DNA from: Sulfuricurvum sp.
Lineage (GTDB): Bacteria > Campylobacterota > Campylobacteria > Campylobacterales > Sulfurimonadaceae
Direction of reading: 5' to 3'
DNA: 64,000 bases
NCBI GenBank assembly: GCA_028714915.1
Contig: JAQTLL010000002.1
Location: 310,001-374,000 of the forward strand
Both the position numbers and the translations under genes were made by a program. The notes under the pieces were generated by a model. That model ran no database searches. It worked only from the letters and a program-made list of their open reading frames with translations, and had not been told where the DNA came from. Shown piece by piece: positions 35,168 to 45,014 of this stretch (the stretch's first letter is position 1; each line of letters opens with the position of its first letter).

Positions 35168-38100
35168 ATGATGTATTTAGAAAGCAGAAGAACATTTTTA
35201 AAAGGTGCAGCGTTCACCGTAGCAGGCGCAGCTATTGCAAAAGGAGTTTTTACAACGGATGCGGTTGCTGAATCGGTTGAAAATAGCAAATTTACCAATA
35301 CTCCGGATACTCTTTCGTTTTATCCTCCACTGGATCAATGGGATAATTTCCAAGAGCTTGACGGAACGGATTGGAAACGTGGCGGTATCGGTCGTCACGG
35401 TGTAAAGAGCGAAGAAAATCCAGATGGTATTTTAGTTCATGATTATATGGTTATTCCTACGGCATGTTCCAACTGTGAAGCGTCATGCGGATTGACAGCG
35501 TGGGTTGATAAAAAAACAATGACAGTCAAAAAATACATGGGTAATCCATTGCATCCGGGTTCTCGCGGACGTAACTGTGCCAAAGGGTATGCTGTTCAGT
35601 CACAAATGTATGATCCTGACCGTATCCCATTTCCGCTTAAGCGTGCTCCGGGTTCAAAACGCGGAGAGGGTAAGTGGATACGTACGACATGGGATGAGGC
35701 AATGACCACCATTGGTAAAAAGATGGGAGATACCATCCGTATTGGGGATGAGCTCTCACGTAAATCGGTTATGTACCATGTCGGTCGTCCGAATGAAAAT
35801 GGATTTGTCCCTAAAATCTGGGAAAGTTTAGGTTTAGACTCGTATAACTCGCATACGAATATTTGTTCAGCAAACGGTCGTACTCCGACGATCCATTTTG
35901 TCAATGATGACCGTACCAGCCCTGACTGGGGGAATGCAAAACTCATTTTCTTGAACTCATCACACGCAGCGGACGCGGGGCACTATTTTGCACAAGCGGC
36001 TGCATATATTGCCGATGCTCGTAAGAAGGGTGCAAAAATGGTCGTTATGGACCCGCGCCTTTCGAACTCTGCAGGTATCGCGGATTTATGGCTTGCACCA
36101 TGGCCGGGTACTGAAACAGTAATCTATCTTCATTTGGCAAGCCGAATTTTGAGTGATAATCTCGTGAACAAAGCCTTTGTTAAGCGTTGGTTTAACTGGG
36201 ATACACTGATGAAAGATAGTGATTATCTTAATTATATGGTAGAAAAAGGGTTCGTTCCAAAACTTCCAGAAGGACGTAATTTTGAAAGTTACTTAGAGCT
36301 TTTAAAAGATATGTATGCCCCGTATACTCTCGAATTTGCCGAAAAAGAGACTCATATTCCGGCTTACAAGCTTGAAAAACTCTATGAGATGTTTATTTGG
36401 GCAGAAGATGCTATTTCTACGTACGTTTGGCGTGCAGCTGCTGCGGGTAACCGTGGTGGATGGATGGTTGGTAAAGCGGTATTCTTTGTAACCGGTTTAC
36501 GTGGTGCTATCGGCAATGTCGGCGGAACCGGATTTTATCATTCACATGATATTTCAGTGGGTGGCAAAGGGGGAAGTGCTACTGTTGGACAGGGTAAAGG
36601 GGGTGCAGACGTACCAGCGGTAAAAGCGTGGAATGAGTTGACATGGCCTCCAGAATGGCCTATTTCAACTTATGAAATGTCATTTTTATTGCCTCATCTT
36701 TTGAGTGATACTGAGTGGCAGAAAAAATGGAATGATCGCGGATTGCAAGTACCGAGTAAATTGGCAGTGTATGCTCCTCGTATGTATAATCCGGTGTGGA
36801 TTAATCCGGATGGTTTCCGTTGGATCGAAGTTCTTAAAGATGAGACAAAAATGGAACTTACCTTTAATCTCTCTCCGGTATGGTCAGAAACCAATTGGTA
36901 TATGGACTATGTCCTCCCTGTTGGGCTTGCGGGTGAGCGCCACGATCAGCATTCGGAAGCAACTCTTCCTGCACGATGGACAACTTTCCGTCAACCGGTA
37001 TTGCGCGTCGCGTTAGAAAAATCGGGCTGGAAACCAAAAAATCCAAATCGTGCAACTCTTGAAGCGCATATCAAAGCAGGTCTTGGCGAAGTGTGGGAAG
37101 AGAATGAGTTCTGGTTCCAATTGTGTACGGATTACATTGATCCAGACGGAAGTTTGAATATCAAAAAAATGTGGGAATCCAAGCGTCATCCAGGAAAAGC
37201 GGTTACGATTGCTGAATGGTACGATGCAGCATTTGGAGATAATCTCCCAAAACTTCATGAAACTGTTATGAATGATGAGCGATACACGAAAGAAGAGTTC
37301 CCTGTCTATTCGTATATGCGAGATCATGGTGTATGGCTTGAAGAAGATAAAATCTATAATGTTCAAGAGCGTGAGCTAAAAGTCGAAGAGGGTAAAATCG
37401 AATCATACGAGCACAAATACGATGTAGCTTCGATTAGTGTTGATAGCTCCGGTATTATCAGTGCCAATGACGAGAAAGGCAAATCGAAAAAAATAGGTAT
37501 TGAGATTGACGGTAAAAAATTACAAGGGTTTACTACGCCAACACGTAAACTTGACGTATATACACAATGGGTAGCAAAAGACTGGAAATGGCCGGAATAT
37601 GGTATGCCAATCTATCCGCGTAATGACAAAGAGAAAGAAGAGATGGTTCATATTGTTTCTCATATTAATCATATTTATATGAAAGAGGAAAACTCATTTG
37701 CCCTTAATACGGTATTTCGTTTACCGTATAATATTCATACACGTTCGGCAAACTCCAAACATTTGATGGAGATCAGCCAAAATCATGACCCTATTTGGAT
37801 CAGTACGAAAGATGCTAAACGTCTTGGATTTAAACGCGGTGATGCAATCCGTGTGAAAATTGTTGATACCGTTTCGGGACTTGAGAGCGGACACTTTGTA
37901 GCGATGGCGGTTCCGACGGAGGGTGTTCTTCCGGGCACTTTGGCATGTTCACACCACGGCGGACGATGGAAGCTCACTAACCATGTCACAATCCCTAATG
38001 GGGTAAGTGACGGTAAGGTAGCGCCGGGTGCAGCACCTCGTGATTTGAGTAACAAAGAATTCCTCAAAGAATCACCTGCAAATGTAGGTAAAGTAGGTGG

Positions 38101-38563
38101 TCAAAGTATTATCGATGATTACAGCGGTACAAGCGGTATTAACAGTTTTGGGGTACCTGTAGCTGAAATCCAAATGGATGGAAAAGTGGGTAAACTTAAA
38201 TATGTTGAAGGGATCAAAGGTTTCAAAGCAGAGCGTTTTGCACAGTATAATCGAGATTCTGAAAATGTATGGTGGGATGGATTGAGCGGTTCATGGCAAA
38301 ATGCCGTTGCTGCTCCGCATCCAGACCCTGTATCAGGTATGCACTGTTGGCACCATAAAGTTCTTGTTGAACCGGCACAGCCAGGAGATAAAATTGGAGA
38401 TATTTTTGTCAATTATGACAACAATCTCAAAGTTTACCAAGCATGGAGAGATAAACTTTCACGCGGACTGGATTCAAATTCCAAACTTCGACGTCCTCGT
38501 CACATTTTCCGTCCATGGGTCAAGCTTGATCCAGCATCGTATGATGTGAATATTAAGGCATAA
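35168..38563 (+). CDS. molybdopterin oxidoreductase catalytic subunit (Psr/Sre/Soe-like, 1131 residues)
   Basis: Catalytic subunit of a complex iron-sulfur molybdoenzyme. A Tat signal (ESRRTFLKGAAFTVAGAAIA, residues 5-24) is followed by an N-terminal [4Fe-4S] site C100-x2-C103-x3-C107-x29-C137 and the bis-MGD domains; SHTNICSANGRTP places Cys233 as the likely Mo ligand, as in the Psr/Phs/Nap group rather than the Ser of DMSO reductase. Further MGD segments are MVVMDPRLSNSA and, in the C-terminal third, FKRGDAIRVKI. It is far longer than PsrA or PhsA (about 760) and closer to SreA, TtrA or SoeA. Substrate (polysulfide, sulfur, tetrathionate, sulfite) cannot be decided from sequence. Confidence 0.88.
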   Translation: MMYLESRRTFLKGAAFTVAGAAIAKGVFTTDAVAESVENSKFTNTPDTLSFYPPLDQWDNFQELDGTDWKRGGIGRHGVKSEENPDGILVHDYMVIPTACSNCEASCGLTAWVDKKTMTVKKYMGNPLHPGSRGRNCAKGYAVQSQMYDPDRIPFPLKRAPGSKRGEGKWIRTTWDEAMTTIGKKMGDTIRIGDELSRKSVMYHVGRPNENGFVPKIWESLGLDSYNSHTNICSANGRTPTIHFVNDDRTSPDWGNAKLIFLNSSHAADAGHYFAQAAAYIADARKKGAKMVVMDPRLSNSAGIADLWLAPWPGTETVIYLHLASRILSDNLVNKAFVKRWFNWDTLMKDSDYLNYMVEKGFVPKLPEGRNFESYLELLKDMYAPYTLEFAEKETHIPAYKLEKLYEMFIWAEDAISTYVWRAAAAGNRGGWMVGKAVFFVTGLRGAIGNVGGTGFYHSHDISVGGKGGSATVGQGKGGADVPAVKAWNELTWPPEWPISTYEMSFLLPHLLSDTEWQKKWNDRGLQVPSKLAVYAPRMYNPVWINPDGFRWIEVLKDETKMELTFNLSPVWSETNWYMDYVLPVGLAGERHDQHSEATLPARWTTFRQPVLRVALEKSGWKPKNPNRATLEAHIKAGLGEVWEENEFWFQLCTDYIDPDGSLNIKKMWESKRHPGKAVTIAEWYDAAFGDNLPKLHETVMNDERYTKEEFPVYSYMRDHGVWLEEDKIYNVQERELKVEEGKIESYEHKYDVASISVDSSGIISANDEKGKSKKIGIEIDGKKLQGFTTPTRKLDVYTQWVAKDWKWPEYGMPIYPRNDKEKEEMVHIVSHINHIYMKEENSFALNTVFRLPYNIHTRSANSKHLMEISQNHDPIWISTKDAKRLGFKRGDAIRVKIVDTVSGLESGHFVAMAVPTEGVLPGTLACSHHGGRWKLTNHVTIPNGVSDGKVAPGAAPRDLSNKEFLKESPANVGKVGGQSIIDDYSGTSGINSFGVPVAEIQMDGKVGKLKYVEGIKGFKAERFAQYNRDSENVWWDGLSGSWQNAVAAPHPDPVSGMHCWHHKVLVEPAQPGDKIGDIFVNYDNNLKVYQAWRDKLSRGLDSNSKLRRPRHIFRPWVKLDPASYDVNIKA

Positions 38564-38596
38564 AAACCTTTCTTCCCCTTGCTAAAAGGGACTTCT

Positions 38597-38617
38597 AAAG
38601 GGCTTTTCAGCCCTTTT
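38597..38617 (+). terminator. intrinsic terminator between catalytic subunit and chaperone genes
   Basis: Stem AAAGGGC / GCCCTTT with a TTTTCA loop and a short T tail, 34 bases after the stop. It separates structural and accessory genes and may set their ratio. Confidence 0.55.
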
Positions 38618-38620
38618 GGT

Positions 38621-38626
38621 TACAAT
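38621..38626 (+). promoter_or_regulatory. possible -10 box of the accessory genes
   Basis: TACAAT in TTGGTTACAATCCTAC, 31 bases before the chaperone ATG, directly after the terminator. Confidence 0.4.
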
Positions 38627-38657
38627 CCTACATTCACTATTAAAAGGCCTAACCGTT

Positions 38658-39281
38658 ATGGATGAGATCATTGCACGAAGCAATATATATGCACTTCTTT
38701 CTCGAATACTCCTCCAAGAATTGGACAGTGAACTCTTGGAGATGCTTCAAACTGATTCGACAGTATTAGAATTTTTCCCTCATTGGAATGAGTGGGAACA
38801 ACGTACAAGCATAAAGAATAGTAAGCTTTTGGAAGAGTATCTTAATCCTGATTTTACCAATCTCTCGATTTTACATCTTGTTCCTTATGAGACTTTCTAT
38901 ACACGCTCGGACCAAATGATTGAAACGGGTGGGGCAAATCCTGTAACGGATATTTACAGTGCATACGATTTTATTGTTGATTATGAAATTGCCCGTGTTG
39001 TCTCAGCCGATCATATTGGAATCCAATATGAATTTATGCATCATCTCTGTGATGCACAAAAAAAAGCGATGGAAGAAAATGATTTAGAGGCGGTTCGTGA
39101 TCTTCAAGAGGTGCAACATCGTTTTTTAAATACCCATTTACTTCAATGGGCACCGATGTATCTCATCAATATGAAATATGAATCCAGAACCCCGTTGTAT
39201 TATGATGCTGCTGAAACGGCATTGGAGTTTATCCTCTCTGATAATGAAACCTTAAGCGCAGTTGTTTCCAACAATTCATGA
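38658..39281 (+). CDS. TorD-family molybdoenzyme chaperone
   Basis: A 207-residue all-helical cytoplasmic protein of the TorD/DmsD type, which holds the apo-catalytic subunit, guards the Tat signal and helps insert the cofactor. Supporting segments are ARSNIYALLSRILLQE at the N-terminus, LVPYETFYTR in the middle, and the H-x-L-x-WAPMYL segment near residue 160 typical of the family. The start at ATG 38658 is used; the frame is open a little further upstream. Its stop overlaps the next start (ATGA). Confidence 0.85.
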   Translation: MDEIIARSNIYALLSRILLQELDSELLEMLQTDSTVLEFFPHWNEWEQRTSIKNSKLLEEYLNPDFTNLSILHLVPYETFYTRSDQMIETGGANPVTDIYSAYDFIVDYEIARVVSADHIGIQYEFMHHLCDAQKKAMEENDLEAVRDLQEVQHRFLNTHLLQWAPMYLINMKYESRTPLYYDAAETALEFILSDNETLSAVVSNNS

Positions 39282-40375
39282 GCCTTTTACTCCTCTCTCC
39301 AAGTGCATGTGTTAGAGCGCTAAGCGTCAATTCGATTTGTACCCTTTGTGCTGACGTGTGTCCCGTTAATGCTATTAGTATCACAGACCGTCTCCCCTCC
39401 ATCAATCAAGTACTATGCGTTGGATGTGCCGGATGTGTTTCGGTGTGTCCGACTGAAGCATTGCGTTTGGATGATTTTAGTTCAACTGACTTTTTTTTTA
39501 CGTTTGCGTCCGATGAAGACAATATGATTTCGTGTCAAAAAAATGTTCCTTGTATCGCGGCGTTGAGCCATGAACAGCTGATCTCTTTTGCCCAAATGAA
39601 ACATGGTGTTGTTTTGGATACGGGTCATTGTGGGCAATGCGATATTGGAGTCAGTATTTTAGCAACACTAGCCAATACGCTTGAAAATGCCAATTATCTA
39701 CTCGAAGCAATTGAATCGGAGTTTAGAGTGGAATGCTCGGATATTGGATACAACGCATTGGACGAGAGTGAAGCAGCAGTAGAAAGACGAGATTTCTTTA
39801 AGACTTTTCATCTTCGTGGGTTGGGTAAAATTAGAGAAGATTTTGAAAAAGAGATTCAGAAAACGACGGATGAGTTTATTGAGTATTCAACCGATAGTTC
39901 CCATACTAAAGAGTTACGGGCAAAAAAAATTACTGATCGCCGTAAACTTTTTTTTACAGCCATAAAGCGGTTGCCTCCTCCTTCAATTTTCCATGTTGTC
40001 GATAGTTCAAAAATACCGTTTACTTCGCAAAAACTGATGGATGAGGCGGCGTGTACAGCGTGTGAAATGTGTTATCGTATTTGTCCGACAGGTGCTTTGA
40101 CATCAGATATGCGTAATTCTAAAATTGACTTTGACCCCTTTTTATGTGTTAAATGCCATTTGTGCCATGATGTTTGTGAACCAAAGGCAATTACCCTTTC
40201 CCCATCATATAATTTAGTAGAATGGTATACGCCAAAAGTACAAAATCTCGTAACGTACAGGGTACGACGATGTGATGAGTGTGATGCGCTGTTTAGTTCC
40301 AGTACCGGTGAAAAAATTTGTCGTCGTTGTCGTCTTGAAGATGAAGAAGCAAAAGAATTATGGGGGATACAATAA
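39278..40375 (+). CDS. polyferredoxin with C-terminal zinc-ribbon, molybdoenzyme accessory
   Basis: The 365-residue cytoplasmic protein has several [4Fe-4S] motifs: C21-x2-C-x3-C28P with upstream C11, then C47-x2-C-x2-C-x3-C57P, and late in the chain CTACEMCYRICP and CVKCHLCHDVC. Between lie more cysteines (ISCQKNVPC, GHCGQC) and a helical stretch; the end is a zinc-ribbon-like CDEC...CRRC. No Tat or Sec signal. The set B-C-A-chaperone-ferredoxin parallels the sreABCDE layout of archaeal sulfur reductases. Role could be electron supply for maturation or a soluble electron partner. Confidence 0.8.
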   Translation: MSLLLLSPSACVRALSVNSICTLCADVCPVNAISITDRLPSINQVLCVGCAGCVSVCPTEALRLDDFSSTDFFFTFASDEDNMISCQKNVPCIAALSHEQLISFAQMKHGVVLDTGHCGQCDIGVSILATLANTLENANYLLEAIESEFRVECSDIGYNALDESEAAVERRDFFKTFHLRGLGKIREDFEKEIQKTTDEFIEYSTDSSHTKELRAKKITDRRKLFFTAIKRLPPPSIFHVVDSSKIPFTSQKLMDEAACTACEMCYRICPTGALTSDMRNSKIDFDPFLCVKCHLCHDVCEPKAITLSPSYNLVEWYTPKVQNLVTYRVRRCDECDALFSSSTGEKICRRCRLEDEEAKELWGIQ

Positions 40376-40822
40376 ATGATGAACAATGATAATTCGATTA
40401 CGACTGAAACGTTACTCTACGGATTTATCGCGGAAAATGCACATAGTAACCGTTTTTCGGTTACAGTCAATAAATTGTTTAAGAGCAATGGTGTTAATGC
40501 GATGATGATACCGATGAACATACGGCCCGATGATATTGCCTTTACCCTTTCTCAAATGCGCAGTTCAAAACTAAACGGTGCAGTGATTTCGACAGAGTAT
40601 CAAGAGGAAGCGTTTGGTTTATTAGATCATGCCTCTGCTTTGGTGCAAGATCATGGGTATTGTGATTTTATCCGTATTGTTGAGAGTGAGCTTATCGGAG
40701 AACTTATTATGCCGATAGCTTTAGAAAAATATGCACAAAGTGAAGCATTTGAAGATGATATTGCTCTCAATTCGATGACACACTATTTTTATGAATTAAT
40801 TACAGGAGAAAATAATGATTAA
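40376..40822 (+). CDS. stand-alone protein resembling the shikimate dehydrogenase substrate-binding domain
   Basis: The 148-residue protein aligns by eye over about residues 13-95 with the N-terminal domain of AroE: LYGFIAENAHSNRFSVTVNKLF matches the xGxPIxHSxSPxxHNxxF segment, then GVNAMMIPMNIRPDDIAFTL, and KLNGAVISTEYQEEAFGLLD matches GANVTVPFKEEAF. The catalytic lysine is Gln76 and the second shikimate-binding serine is Arg26, and there is no NADP domain. So it is not a working shikimate dehydrogenase; it may bind a small ligand or a partner of the molybdoenzyme. It begins immediately after the polyferredoxin stop. The resemblance is inference. Confidence 0.72.
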   Translation: MMNNDNSITTETLLYGFIAENAHSNRFSVTVNKLFKSNGVNAMMIPMNIRPDDIAFTLSQMRSSKLNGAVISTEYQEEAFGLLDHASALVQDHGYCDFIRIVESELIGELIMPIALEKYAQSEAFEDDIALNSMTHYFYELITGENND

Positions 40823-41315
40823 AACTGATTTTAGTGATTTAAAAGCAGAATTTGACCAATTTGTACGAGGTAAATGTGAGAGTGGAAGTTGTGAAACATC
40901 CAGTGATGAAAAAAATGAAGAAGAAGCAGAGGAGTATGTCCCTGGGTTTGTTGATGAGCTAGGGGATAGACTTCTTGCCCCTTATCATAGCGGTGTTTAT
41001 TTTTCTCGAATGGATATTAAGCGGGTTGCAGAAGCAATCGATGAATCCATTCCAATCAAAGAGCGTAAAAAAATGATCCGAGCTTTGTTTCGGCATACAA
41101 CACGACGTTCATATTTACAAGCGGCCTTTGATGAATTCAACCGCCATTTTGGAGGACGTATTTTAATTTATACAGAACTTTCCGAAGCGTTTCCTGCGTC
41201 AAAATCGATTTTTGATGCTAACATTGCGAAAATCAAAAAGACTCAAAAAATGTTGGATCAGATTATCGAAGATTTTGAAGAGATAGAACCAACAGATGAG
41301 CCGATGATGATGTAA
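40815..41315 (+). CDS. hypothetical protein at the end of the molybdoenzyme gene set
   Basis: The 166-residue protein is not recognised. It has a short cysteine motif (GKCESGSCE, about 19-27), a strongly acidic stretch (DEKNEEEAEEY), a basic helical middle (IKERKKMIRALFRHTTRRSYLQAAFDEFNRHFG) and a coiled-coil-like end closing with MMM. It overlaps the AroE-like gene by eight bases and has GGAG before its ATG, so it is coupled to it. Likely an accessory or assembly factor of the complex, by context only. Confidence 0.72.
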   Translation: MIKTDFSDLKAEFDQFVRGKCESGSCETSSDEKNEEEAEEYVPGFVDELGDRLLAPYHSGVYFSRMDIKRVAEAIDESIPIKERKKMIRALFRHTTRRSYLQAAFDEFNRHFGGRILIYTELSEAFPASKSIFDANIAKIKKTQKMLDQIIEDFEEIEPTDEPMMM

Positions 41316-41325
41316 TCACATCATC
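41306..41325. terminator. convergent hairpin between two operons
   Basis: GATGATGT-AATC-ACATCATC, a perfect 8-bp stem covering both facing stop codons; T-rich sequence follows on the plus strand. Confidence 0.5.
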
Positions 41326-41828
41326 GTTTGTATTTTTAAAATCCCTTGCCATACCAATGCGGTTGTAATTCCTGCAGCAAATCCTGCGAGTATATCATCA
41401 CCCATAACGCCCCATCCCCCTTTGGCTTCACGGTCTATTCGTCCAATAAGGGAAGGTTTTTTGATATCATAAAGTCGGAAGAAAATAAAGCTTAGTGCAA
41501 TTTGGATGGCTATTCCATTATCCATATTTCCTAAATCACCCATACTAAACGCTATTCCAGGAGCAATGGCAAGGGCAATCCACATTCCTACCAGTTCATC
41601 AATGACAATACGTGCATCATCATGGATTTCACAAGAAGCTTCGTGTTTATCAATACTTTTAATAGCAATAAGGGTGATTAAAATCGAGAGCATAAAAAGG
41701 GTTTGTGACCCAAAAAACATTAAAAGTGCAACACCAAAAGGGAGGGAGACCAGTGTTCCTACCGTTCCGGGAGCTTTGGGTGCATGACCACTTTTGAAGA
41801 GGGTGAGAAAAAGCCAGTTATATTTCAT
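41316..41828 (-). CDS. pgpA: phosphatidylglycerophosphatase A
   Basis: PgpA removes the phosphate from phosphatidylglycerol phosphate in the inner membrane. The 170-residue protein has the family marks SGHAPKAPGTVGTLVSLP (13-30), DDARIVIDELVGMWIA (70-85) and FRLYDIKKPSLIGRIDREAKGGWGVMGDDILAGFAAG (about 115-150), plus four hydrophobic segments. It lies 12 bases after the Sat-family gene, the last gene of ispDF-regulator-sat-pgpA. Confidence 0.93.
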   Translation of the reverse strand: MKYNWLFLTLFKSGHAPKAPGTVGTLVSLPFGVALLMFFGSQTLFMLSILITLIAIKSIDKHEASCEIHDDARIVIDELVGMWIALAIAPGIAFSMGDLGNMDNGIAIQIALSFIFFRLYDIKKPSLIGRIDREAKGGWGVMGDDILAGFAAGITTALVWQGILKIQTMM

Positions 41829-41840
41829 TGCATATTTCCA

Positions 41841-43031
41841 TTAGGTGAGAGAAGTCGTTTGGTAGAGATTCATCAGCTCGATATAAAAATCATTTTCACT
41901 GTGTTCTTCTAGCAGACCGTTTGTGGGCATAATGTCGTAATAAAGCTTGGCTAAATTCTTAAATCGGTTTGGATGAAGCGTTGAGACGATGAGGGAGGAA
42001 ATCTCTTTTCGAACCAAGACCGCAGGAGGGAGAAGACCTTGTTTCATAAGCTCTAAAATCGATTCGGAATTGTAAGAAATATGGTGATGGTGTCCATGCG
42101 GGCAGGTTTGAATGCTAACGAGCGTTTTGCACAGGTTGCAATAAACGTATTCACTGGCGATGCATACCTCAATATTAATTCCTACGAGACGATCGACAAC
42201 TGATTTATTGGCATTTCGATCATAGTACATACCGATACCTGCATGGTTTTGCCCAATCATAAGAAGATTACATCCATAATTTTTAGCAACAATGGCATCC
42301 AGTATGACTTCATTGCTTCCCGCAAAAATATAGCTGTTTTCGAGCGGGACGACAATTACGCGACCTTGTGGAAGGTAATTTGTGATGAAAAATTCGAGTA
42401 CTTCATGCCGAAGTTCATATTTAAGGTCACTGCTCCCATAGGGTTTGAAGAGAAAAATAACAACTAAATCACTTCTCTCCAAGCTTTGACGAATGAGACG
42501 CTCATGAGCACGATGGAGAGGATTGGCCGCCATGAAAATAGCCGTTGTATGTTTAGCAGAAATTTGTTCTTGCGCTTTTTTGATTTTTAAGTGAATCTCT
42601 TCGATGCTGGAGAGATCTATGGTGTATTCTCCACAAAGGGCATATTTCCCCAACCGCTTGTAAGTTGCGCTTACTCCGGGATGAGCGAGGTCTTCAGTTC
42701 CATAGATTTGTCGAAGACGCTCAATGGGATTGATAGGGAAAACTTCATCAACATAAATTTCACCAACTAAGGCATGATCGCATACCAGATCAAGAACTTC
42801 CCCTTTTTTGGTACTGAGCAAGACGGTTTCATTGGTTTTGCCATTGGGAGAGAGAATAAGCGGGAAAGGGAACGTTGTCCCCTTAAAAAGCCCGCTTTGA
42901 AGCACTTCCATGCATTGATTGGCATTCATAAGCTCTGTGACAGGAGAGAGCATCCCCGATTTGAGCAGTGTGAGAGCGCTGAGAGCCTCTTGATCGATAT
43001 AAAGAGCTCTATTTTTTCTTAATGATGCCAT
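41841..43031 (-). CDS. sat: sulfate adenylyltransferase-family protein with altered active-site motifs
   Basis: The 396-residue protein has the ATP sulfurylase fold: PUA-like N-terminus (1-155), then the catalytic Rossmann part, including NPLHRAHE (170-177) and a zinc site C298-x2-C301-x8-C310-PHG-H. However, the QTRN sulfate/ATP motif reads MAAN (167-170) and the GRDHAG motif reads GQNHAG (260-265), and the ISGTxxR loop reads ISYNSES. The Arg and Gln needed to bind sulfate are therefore missing. C. jejuni has a sat-annotated gene at the same place (Cj1609). It may have a different adenylyl-transfer or non-catalytic role. It overlaps the regulator gene by 23 bases. Confidence 0.82.
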   Translation of the reverse strand: MASLRKNRALYIDQEALSALTLLKSGMLSPVTELMNANQCMEVLQSGLFKGTTFPFPLILSPNGKTNETVLLSTKKGEVLDLVCDHALVGEIYVDEVFPINPIERLRQIYGTEDLAHPGVSATYKRLGKYALCGEYTIDLSSIEEIHLKIKKAQEQISAKHTTAIFMAANPLHRAHERLIRQSLERSDLVVIFLFKPYGSSDLKYELRHEVLEFFITNYLPQGRVIVVPLENSYIFAGSNEVILDAIVAKNYGCNLLMIGQNHAGIGMYYDRNANKSVVDRLVGINIEVCIASEYVYCNLCKTLVSIQTCPHGHHHHISYNSESILELMKQGLLPPAVLVRKEISSLIVSTLHPNRFKNLAKLYYDIMPTNGLLEEHSENDFYIELMNLYQTTSLT

Positions 43032-43896
43032 ACTTTTTTCTCTTTTCCCATAAACTTTTACGTGAAATACCTAATTTTTTTGAGAGCTCCGTATCAGGAA
43101 AACGGTTTTGAAAATTGGTCATGATGTATTTGACGTATTCCTCAATCGGTAGGATTTCTCCTTGATCAAAAAGTTGACTTTCGCTTTCGATATCGATAAG
43201 ACGAAAAGGGACATTCTCAACATGATCAGTACTTGAAATAATACAAGAACATTTTTCAATCAGTTCAAAAAAAGCTTTATACTCACTTTTTTTTAAATTT
43301 TGAAAATCGGTAATATAGAGTACGTTAGTATTGGAGTGAAGTTCAATATCCTGAAGTGCCTTAGAGGAACTAAGAGAAATAAACTGAAGTGCTTCCTTTC
43401 GATGTTCAGCATATCCAAATGCAAATGCATCGGCGTATTTTTGATAGCCGCTGCAAATCATGAGGGGGAGTTCTGTTTTGTCGAAATCTTCATCAATGTT
43501 AACGTTCGTAAAGGTATGAGCTAAATAGCGCTCATAAGTTTGATTTTGGCGACGAAGACGTTCATGATTTTGAAAATGTTGAATTTTTCGGATGAGCTCT
43601 TCAATCATAAAAGGTTTGAGAATATAATCTTTTGCCCCTGCAGCAAGTGGCTTGGAGACCGTATCATTGCTGACATATGAAACCATCAAAATAACGACTG
43701 AATCCTTATATGCTTCGATAACAGGATAAATATCTTGACCGCTGATATTGGTTGAAAGGAGAATAACGTCGTAAGCTGTCCCCTTTAGAGCCTCTTTTGT
43801 TGAGCTGCTAATATCACAGTTATGATTTAGATCACTGAGTTTAGAGGCGATACTTTGTGCGAGATAAATCTCATTTTCGATAATTAAGACGTTCAT
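43009..43896 (-). CDS. HP1021-like atypical response regulator
   Basis: Orphan regulator of the HP1021/Cj1608 type, known from H. pylori and C. jejuni to act in redox/stress response and at the replication origin. The 295-residue protein has an N-terminal receiver fold in which the phospho-acceptor is Ser48 (VILLSTNISG) and the acidic pocket reads IIENE, so phosphorylation is not expected. The middle part is unlike other regulators; the end is a Fis-like HTH (SKKLGISRKSLWEKRKKYGI). The ATG overlaps the ispDF stop (ATGA), with GGAAAAACGG upstream. Context ispDF-regulator-sat-pgpA matches C. jejuni Cj1607-Cj1610. Confidence 0.88.
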   Translation of the reverse strand: MNVLIIENEIYLAQSIASKLSDLNHNCDISSSTKEALKGTAYDVILLSTNISGQDIYPVIEAYKDSVVILMVSYVSNDTVSKPLAAGAKDYILKPFMIEELIRKIQHFQNHERLRRQNQTYERYLAHTFTNVNIDEDFDKTELPLMICSGYQKYADAFAFGYAEHRKEALQFISLSSSKALQDIELHSNTNVLYITDFQNLKKSEYKAFFELIEKCSCIISSTDHVENVPFRLIDIESESQLFDQGEILPIEEYVKYIMTNFQNRFPDTELSKKLGISRKSLWEKRKKYGIIKKK

Positions 43897-45014
43897 CCGT
43901 TTTTCCAATCAAAATAGTATAACGAAGCGGTCGCAAGAACACCCACCCCCTCTTTGCGGCCGATAAATCCGAGGTGCTCTGTTGTGGTGGCTTTGATATT
44001 TAATCGCGAGAGAGGTAGGTGTAATAAAGCGCTGAGTGTACGGCGCATTTGCTCTTTATAGGGGGAAATCTTCGGTGTTTGTGCAATGATAGTAATATCT
44101 GCATGCAAGATGACAAACCCAAATTGATGCAGTTTTAAAACACATTGAGCAAGCAATTCTTTGGAGTCCGCATTTTTATACGTATTGTCCGTATCGGGGA
44201 AAAGCATCCCAATATCACCCAGACATGCAGCCCCAAGCAGAGAATCGATCAGGGCGTGAATCGCAACATCTCCATCGCTGTGGGCTAGAAATCCAAAAGG
44301 GCTGTCAATCTCTACCCCACCAAGCACCATGGGCTTACCTTCTTCAAAAGCATGGACATCAAACCCATTTCCGGTAAAAATAGCACTTGAAGGAGCTTTT
44401 AGACATTGAAGCGCAGAGAGATCGCTGATGTGGGTTATTTTATCGGCGAGTATATCTCCCTCAATGAGGTGCCGAGTCCCTCCATTTGCTACTATTGCAC
44501 TGCTCTCATCGGTGTATTCGATGGGTGTTTTCAACGCTTGGAGGAGAATGGATGTTTTGGAAAGTTGAGGAGTTTGAATCCGTTTTACGTGGTCACGGTT
44601 TATGGTCTCGTGGTTATAGAGCATGGTATCATTGACACTTAGTGCGGGAACAATGCAGTCGGCATACTCTTTTGCATCGATAAGGCGCTGTATCAGTTCA
44701 AAACTAACGCACGAACGTGCAATATCACTGACCAGAACGTAGGGCGCTTTAACATACTCAATTGCATTGCGCAGCGAGTGCTGACGGCTATTCCCTCCGG
44801 CAATAATCGTATGCTCGCACATGGTTCGCATAAAAGGGCATTCCTCAGGATGGGCAACAACGATTATTTTTGCAAAATATCCCATCTGCATGATACGGTT
44901 AGTAACATACAGCCACAGCGGATCATGATCAATTCGAAGCCACTGTTTTTTGACAGGGACTTTAAAACGGCTTGAATTACCTGCTGCGAGTAGAATAAGT
45001 GTCAAATCAGACAT
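43893..45014 (-). CDS. ispDF: bifunctional IspD/IspF (MEP isoprenoid pathway)
   Basis: One chain carries two non-consecutive MEP-pathway enzymes, as is usual in this class. Residues 1-205 are IspD (LILLAAGNSSRFKVPVKKQWL nucleotide loop, VLVSDIARSCVS, VKRIQTPQ). Residues about 213-373 are IspF (TGNGFDVHAFEEGKPMVLGGVEI, LAHSDGDVAIHALIDSLLGAACLGDIGMLFPD, ATTTEHLGFIGRKEGV) with the metal ligands DVH and H. AGGAT precedes the ATG. Confidence 0.95.
   Translation of the reverse strand: MSDLTLILLAAGNSSRFKVPVKKQWLRIDHDPLWLYVTNRIMQMGYFAKIIVVAHPEECPFMRTMCEHTIIAGGNSRQHSLRNAIEYVKAPYVLVSDIARSCVSFELIQRLIDAKEYADCIVPALSVNDTMLYNHETINRDHVKRIQTPQLSKTSILLQALKTPIEYTDESSAIVANGGTRHLIEGDILADKITHISDLSALQCLKAPSSAIFTGNGFDVHAFEEGKPMVLGGVEIDSPFGFLAHSDGDVAIHALIDSLLGAACLGDIGMLFPDTDNTYKNADSKELLAQCVLKLHQFGFVILHADITIIAQTPKISPYKEQMRRTLSALLHLPLSRLNIKATTTEHLGFIGRKEGVGVLATASLYYFDWKNG

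Follow-up and report, generated by a model that had tools for sequence, protein, structure and literature searches.

SatL, a widespread relative of ATP sulfurylase in Campylobacterota that lacks the sulfate-binding residues

Results and Discussion

In this study, a gene of Sulfuricurvum sp. annotated as sulfate adenylyltransferase (sat) was compared with its relatives throughout Campylobacterota. Its Sat-like product, named SatL in this analysis, is a phylum-wide, ancient and vertically inherited relative of ATP sulfurylase and, judging from the comparison of sequences, is very probably not an ATP sulfurylase itself. That it does not serve the cell as such follows from the loss of the sulfate site, the presence of CysDN and CysH in the host, the occurrence of CysD/CysH independently of SatL, and the lack of AprA matches over the cut-off in the genomes examined.

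Organization of the satL gene and its product

The analyzed DNA is a 64,000-nt stretch (hereafter the window) of contig JAQTLL010000002.1 (assembly GCA_028714915.1, positions 310,001–374,000 of the forward strand). Within it, satL occupies positions 41841..43031 of the minus strand, as do all the parts of the gene given below, begins with ATG and encodes a Sat-fold protein of 396 aa without a sulfate site. The protein comprises a PUA-like domain (aa 6–135), a nucleotidyltransferase core (approximately aa 160–290), a zinc/His module (aa 298–320) and a C-terminal extension (aa 346–396). Pfam model PF01747 (ATP-sulfurylase) matches it with 183.6 bits (cut-off 24.3), and PUA_2 matches as well. The top PDB matches are all ATP sulfurylases, both by sequence and by fold, and the best of them are the zinc-containing 1V47 and 8A8D (Foldseek E-values of 8e-26 and 7e-26, respectively).

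The zinc/His module (42072..42140) contains the zinc ligands C298, C301, C310 and H312 together with a new CPHGxHHH...Y motif. The extension (41844..41996), which ends with LYQTTSLT, is absent from Sat; it has no Pfam match, and its PDB matches consist of Sat domain III and noise only. The AlphaFold model of SatL is good for the first ~260 residues, while the pLDDT falls below 50 at residues 313–354 and 359–396, which makes the zinc module and the tail unusable in it.

Loss of the sulfate-binding residues

In the ATP sulfurylase of A. vinosum, Gln199 and Arg201 (QxRN) bind the oxygens of sulfate together with the NH of Ala299; the alpha-phosphate is contacted by Thr200, Arg201 and Asn202, and the ribose is contacted by Gly295, Arg296 O and His298 (PMC3779200). 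According to the same paper, the RNP (QxRN) and GRD loops show strict conservation among ATP sulfurylases, whichever of the three metabolic contexts they serve. An alignment of the window protein with the Sat chains of the PDB revealed MAAN in place of QTRN (QxRN/RNP loop; codons 167–170, 42522..42533), GQNHAG in place of GRDHAG (codons 260–265, 42237..42254) and ISYNSES in place of the PPi-binding ISGTxxR loop (codons 318–324, 42060..42080), with the nucleotidyltransferase signature HRAH retained (codons 173–176, 42504..42515). These substitutions had been pointed out in the initial annotation, as had the preservation of the fold, HRAH and the zinc-site residues, and both observations hold, the former against the PDB chains and in 95 relatives, the latter by PF01747, the PDB matches and C298/C301/C310/H312.

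Approximately 148 SatL proteins were retrieved, and conservation was counted on the 95 of them that lie below 85% identity. The sulfate-binding residues Gln167 and Arg169 were found in none of the 95, with Ala replacing the latter in 80. In the GRD loop (GQN in the window), Arg261 occurs in 12/95 and Asp in 1/95 proteins; the GxxKxxD mobile loop, which reads KPYGSSD at residues 196–202 of the window protein, retains G in 2%, K in 18% and D in 7% of the relatives; the ISGTxxR loop retains S in 3%, T in 2% and R in 5%. Since the lost contacts are those which the crystal structure assigns to sulfate (Gln199 and Arg201; PMC3779200), SatL is not expected to act as a sulfurylase, and since the same losses recur across 95 proteins with the zinc ligands present in 95/95, they are not a matter of chance or of local mutation.

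Other parts of the protein are kept to a different extent. The first His of HxxH is His in 69, Asn in 22 and Thr in 4 of the 95 proteins; the second (H176) is found in 92/95 and the adjacent E177 in all of them. The positions of ribose contact are G260 (87/95) and H263 (81/95), the latter lost in several Helicobacter-like lineages, and in Helicobacter-like genomes the active-site motifs erode further. Conservation peaks in the zinc module, where an HHH motif was gained, and in the new 50-aa C-terminal tail: C298, C301, C310, P311, H312 and G313 are each present in 95/95 proteins, H315 and H316 in 94/95 each, and the highly conserved region past residue 345 includes F382 (94/95) and Y383 (95/95).

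SatL was also compared at the 55 positions that do not vary among 12 canonical Sat proteins: 7 are kept at a frequency of at least 90%, 43 are relaxed, and at 5 a different residue has become fixed (R169A and D262N are among these). A maximum-likelihood tree placed SatL and canonical Sat on opposite sides of one branch with a support of 100/100. On NCBIfam NF003166 (Sat, cut-off 387) SatL proteins reach 93–194 bits (193.5 for the window protein) and on TIGR00339 (Sat, cut-off 323) the window protein stays below the cut-off with 141.4 bits, versus 385–422 and 279–328 bits, respectively, for the canonical Sat copies of the phylum. Pairwise dN/dS values of satL versus close relatives are 0.03–0.08 (approximate, as dS is near saturation in some pairs). 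SatL is under strong purifying selection and is still a working protein.

Sulfate activation in the host and its relatives

The host genome carries, at another locus, cysD, cysN, cysH and cysK above the NCBIfam cut-offs, together with a gene of the nitrite/sulfite reductase family, and its gene content predicts that sulfate is activated by CysDN and CysH. The search for a second, canonical sat elsewhere in this genome, which had been proposed as a check, was performed, and no other PF01747 gene was found. A route of sulfate assimilation via CysDN and CysH has also been reported for A. butzleri (PMC2147049).

Among the Campylobacterota genomes surveyed, strong matches to PF01507 (CysD/CysH) were found in 66/238 genomes with SatL and in 19/60 without it (odds ratio 0.83, Fisher p = 0.63; a descriptive statistic, as the genomes are not independent by descent), which leaves 172/238 SatL genomes with no strong CysD/CysH match. 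A role of SatL as the upstream step of sulfate assimilation was rejected for want of this association, and its dissimilatory use was rejected because AprA was over the cut-off in 0/38 genomes examined.

Distribution across Campylobacterota

PF01747 was searched for in 298 Campylobacterota genomes, of which 239 gave a match and 238 carry SatL. A canonical, high-scoring Sat was identified in only 5/298 genomes, in 4 beside SatL and in 1 (G122) in its place. Glycan-type clusters surround the canonical copies at loci L124–L127, which neighbour a pyruvate-kinase-barrel-like gene; at L124 and L125 an APS-kinase-like gene is a further neighbour (both genes assigned by eye from motifs). This setting suggests a part in the sulfation of surface glycans, and it matches that of the C. 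jejuni capsule locus, which has a putative sulfate adenylyltransferase (PMC2993937).

The genomes without SatL that were checked belong mainly to family f7 (Arcobacteraceae-like, judging from genome size and the number of response regulators) and to Helicobacter-like genera of family f2, the family names being inferred. The majority of Arcobacteraceae-like genomes and many of the Helicobacter-like ones lack satL, and its function must therefore be dispensable or replaceable there. In the Sulfuricurvum-named contigs the copies are SatL in the same operon. The same was found for the copies retrieved from Sulfurimonas-named contigs (L048, L050–L054 and L056–L059); the initial annotation had expected a true Sat of Sulfurimonas as a reference for alignment. 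Its broader proposal, a Campylobacterota-wide protein annotated as Sat but with another function, is supported by the phylum-wide loss of the sulfate pocket and the use of CysDN by the host.

No relatives of SatL were found in viral contigs. Neither was a free-standing zinc/tail module found in the SatL-negative genomes, the sole match besides the host genome being the canonical Sat of G122. Two long frames (L156 and L159) were considered as possible fusion proteins and rejected, since the additional part is upstream low-complexity sequence with no second domain by eye. One protein (L158:1363-2271, minus strand, genome G232) is devoid of the PUA-like domain, with the core, zinc module and tail intact, and at L150 (G049) the N-terminal part of satL lies in another frame, which indicates a frameshift or a sequencing error.

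Genomic neighbourhood of satL

Upstream of satL lie, on the same strand, a gene for an orphan response regulator of the HP1021/CemR type (43009..43896; the type is assigned from synteny and PMC11334517) and ispDF, coding for the bifunctional enzyme of the MEP pathway (43893..45014, above the NF006899 cut-off). The 3' end of the regulator gene overlaps the satL start by 23 nt, and its own start is likely the ATG at 43896, which overlaps the stop codon of ispDF (ATGA), with a TTG at 43908 called by the tool. The gene for phosphatidylglycerophosphatase A (pgpA; 41316..41828, minus strand) begins 12 nt downstream of satL. As these genes overlap or are only 12 nt apart, the arrangement fits an operon. 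The gene order, noted in the initial annotation, was found in the window and in relatives alike: in 93 satL loci, the regulator is directly upstream in 89, ispDF is present in 88, pgpA is downstream in 79 and all three accompany satL in 77, some of the misses being due to contig ends.

The operon itself does not need satL, as in some of the SatL-negative genomes checked (L164–L167 and L169) ispDF, the regulator gene and pgpA are present with satL cleanly missing. SatL is encoded apart from the regulator at L113, L114 and L115, and in two genomes it is away from the regulator, IspDF and PgpA. A regulator orthologue was present in 36/39 and 11/13 of the SatL-negative genomes checked; SatL as an obligate partner of this regulator, one of the roles initially envisaged, was therefore rejected.

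Several other neighbours were recorded. At L113 and L114 (family f7), satL lies outside the operon, upstream of a small lipoprotein-like gene and divergent from queH (epoxyqueuosine reductase), a placement which could be due to chance. A link to thiamine via a neighbouring thiC was considered and discarded, as thiC is also found in most SatL-negative genomes. In the window, positions 35168–41315 hold a convergent cluster encoding a large molybdopterin oxidoreductase-like protein, a TorD-like chaperone, a ferredoxin-like protein and two small proteins; such a cluster is also near satL in some Sulfuricurvum and Sulfurimonas loci and in Sulfurovum mangrovi.

Possible functions of SatL

The reading that we tentatively favour, although we would not put it at even chances, is that SatL is a zinc- and His-assisted, nucleotide-dependent enzyme acting on a substrate other than sulfate. 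On this reading, sulfate activation would have been given up, with the sulfate- and PPi-binding loops gone across the phylum and the zinc site retained. The protein may still bind a nucleotide or another phosphorylated ligand at the HxxHE pocket and the ribose-binding G/H residues, and the new zinc/HHH module, situated in the PPi loop's place, would aid nucleotide-dependent transfer or hydrolysis. An enzyme is favoured because H176-E177 is near-invariant and a His cluster occupies the place of the PPi loop. Since satL shares one operon with ispDF, the CemR gene and pgpA, it may plausibly have a housekeeping role in the metabolism of energy, isoprenoids or phospholipids. With less confidence, it may be proposed that the Sat fold was turned into such an enzyme for a near-essential metabolite of Campylobacterota, including C. 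jejuni, which would be a new chemistry for the family.

The main rival, which we consider somewhat doubtful yet worth serious attention, is that SatL is a pseudo-enzyme, i.e. a zinc-stabilised protein that senses nucleotides or serves as a scaffold through its zinc/His module and tail, and perhaps tunes a neighbour such as PgpA or CemR. The substitution of the first HxxH His by Asn or Thr in 26/95 proteins, i.e. the loss of the first catalytic His in about a quarter of them, and the losses of H263 fit such a protein equally well; the zinc module and tail, and not the catalytic pocket, are the best conserved parts, and the CemR-type regulator adjoins satL in 89/93 loci, the two reading frames overlapping in the window. 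On the other hand, H176 and E177 hardly vary, many genomes retain the regulator, IspDF and PgpA without SatL, and in two genomes SatL is located away from all three. As the pLDDT of the zinc module and tail is below 50, the AlphaFold model cannot choose between an enzyme and a pseudo-enzyme.

A role in place of NadD or CoaD, in which SatL would adenylylate the precursor of a known cofactor (NMN, nicotinate or phosphopantetheine), is improbable. The HUP fold is the same, and Sat is followed among the fold matches by PanC, NMNAT and CoaD, but PF01467, NadD and CoaD models are all missing from the Pfam and NCBIfam matches of SatL, the host encodes its own NadD-like protein (GSFDPPHIGH), and the mean numbers of PF01467 matches are equal in genomes with and without SatL (3.34 vs 3.25, p = 1.0); the nicotinate-like role suggested initially is thus not upheld. 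A CoaD-like PF01467 match is missing from the 91%-complete MAG of the host, probably owing to missing sequence, and a strong one is present in the genus-mate G133.

Still less probable is the role proposed for Sulfurimonas (PMC4584964), namely that SatL, however unusual, is a true ATP sulfurylase serving the assimilation of sulfate. The Sat fold with its exclusively Sat best PDB matches, the retained HRAH and zinc site and the annotation in public records speak for it, but the Gln and Arg of QxRN are absent in 95/95 proteins and the PPi loop is lost, the host has CysDN and CysH, 172/238 SatL genomes have no strong CysD/CysH match and AprA exceeded the cut-off in 0/38 genomes examined; moreover, CysD/CysH occur in SatL-negative genomes, and A. 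butzleri is reported to possess a CysDN/CysH route (PMC2147049). The least probable reading, in which SatL is a degenerating relic of an old Sat that persists solely owing to its place in the operon, could draw on the loss of the gene in several lineages, the further erosion of motifs in Helicobacter-like genomes, the missing PUA domain at L158 and the frameshift at L150, but is contradicted by dN/dS of 0.03–0.08, a zinc/His module and tail invariant across 95 diverse proteins, the reported essentiality (PMC10077673) and the clean absence of satL from operons that do not need it.

Essentiality and consequences for annotation

In C. jejuni, Cj1609 is annotated as sulfate adenylyltransferase and numbered directly after the CemR gene Cj1608 (PMC10077673, PMC11334517). 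Its position and naming suggest that it is SatL, which sampled Campylobacter-like genomes carry at that place. By TraDIS, Cj1609 was reported as essential in C. jejuni (six strains) and C. coli (four strains), whereas C. lari and C. hyointestinalis gave no such result (PMC10077673); the essentiality could reflect a polar effect on pgpA. In an aerotolerant C. coli derivative, A290V was the single substitution listed in "sat", as the gene is labelled there (PMC5366326).

A review of Sulfurimonas found a "Sat-type ATPS" in every species examined, noted the lack of AprBA and suggested that the enzyme serves assimilation (PMC4584964). The authors of another study considered the lone sat "conspicuous" (PMC4674564), and in a comparative table each of the eleven Sulfurimonas genomes has Sat, several of them with no other gene of this kind (PMC7952632). 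SatL explains these puzzles. If it is not an ATP sulfurylase, papers on Sulfurimonas that list it as Sat rest on a misannotation, and the Sat entries in metabolic reconstructions of Sulfurimonas and other Campylobacterota (PMC4584964, PMC4674564, PMC7952632) should be withdrawn or marked. A limited literature search found no paper questioning this annotation. In most Campylobacterota, including food-borne Campylobacter, a gene is named for a textbook enzyme without encoding the parts for its reaction, and it is under the sulfate adenylyltransferase label that the same locus has been reported as essential in C. jejuni and C. coli. Being conserved and near-essential, with a defined signature and a small set of candidate ligands, SatL is a good target for experiments.

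Comparison with known systems

SatL shares with the Sat proteins of Thermus thermophilus (1V47) and Methanothermococcus thermolithotrophicus (8A8D) the three-domain fold, the PUA-like N-terminal domain, the HxxH nucleotidyltransferase core and the Cys3His zinc site in domain III. It differs from them by the loss of the QxRN, GRD, GxxKxxD and ISGTxxR loops, the addition of CPHGxHHH and a 50-aa tail, and the lack of a link to sulfate genes. The canonical Sat of loci L124–L127 belongs to the same superfamily and is found in the same phylum, with 4/5 canonical-Sat genomes carrying both proteins; it keeps QTRN, GRDHAG and IS(G/A)TxxR and reaches or nears the NCBIfam cut-off, whereas SatL does none of these. 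NadD, CoaD and PanC have the HUP core fold and a (T/H)xxH-type motif in common with SatL, but their TM-scores by query are ~0.25–0.3 and they are devoid of the PUA and zinc domains.
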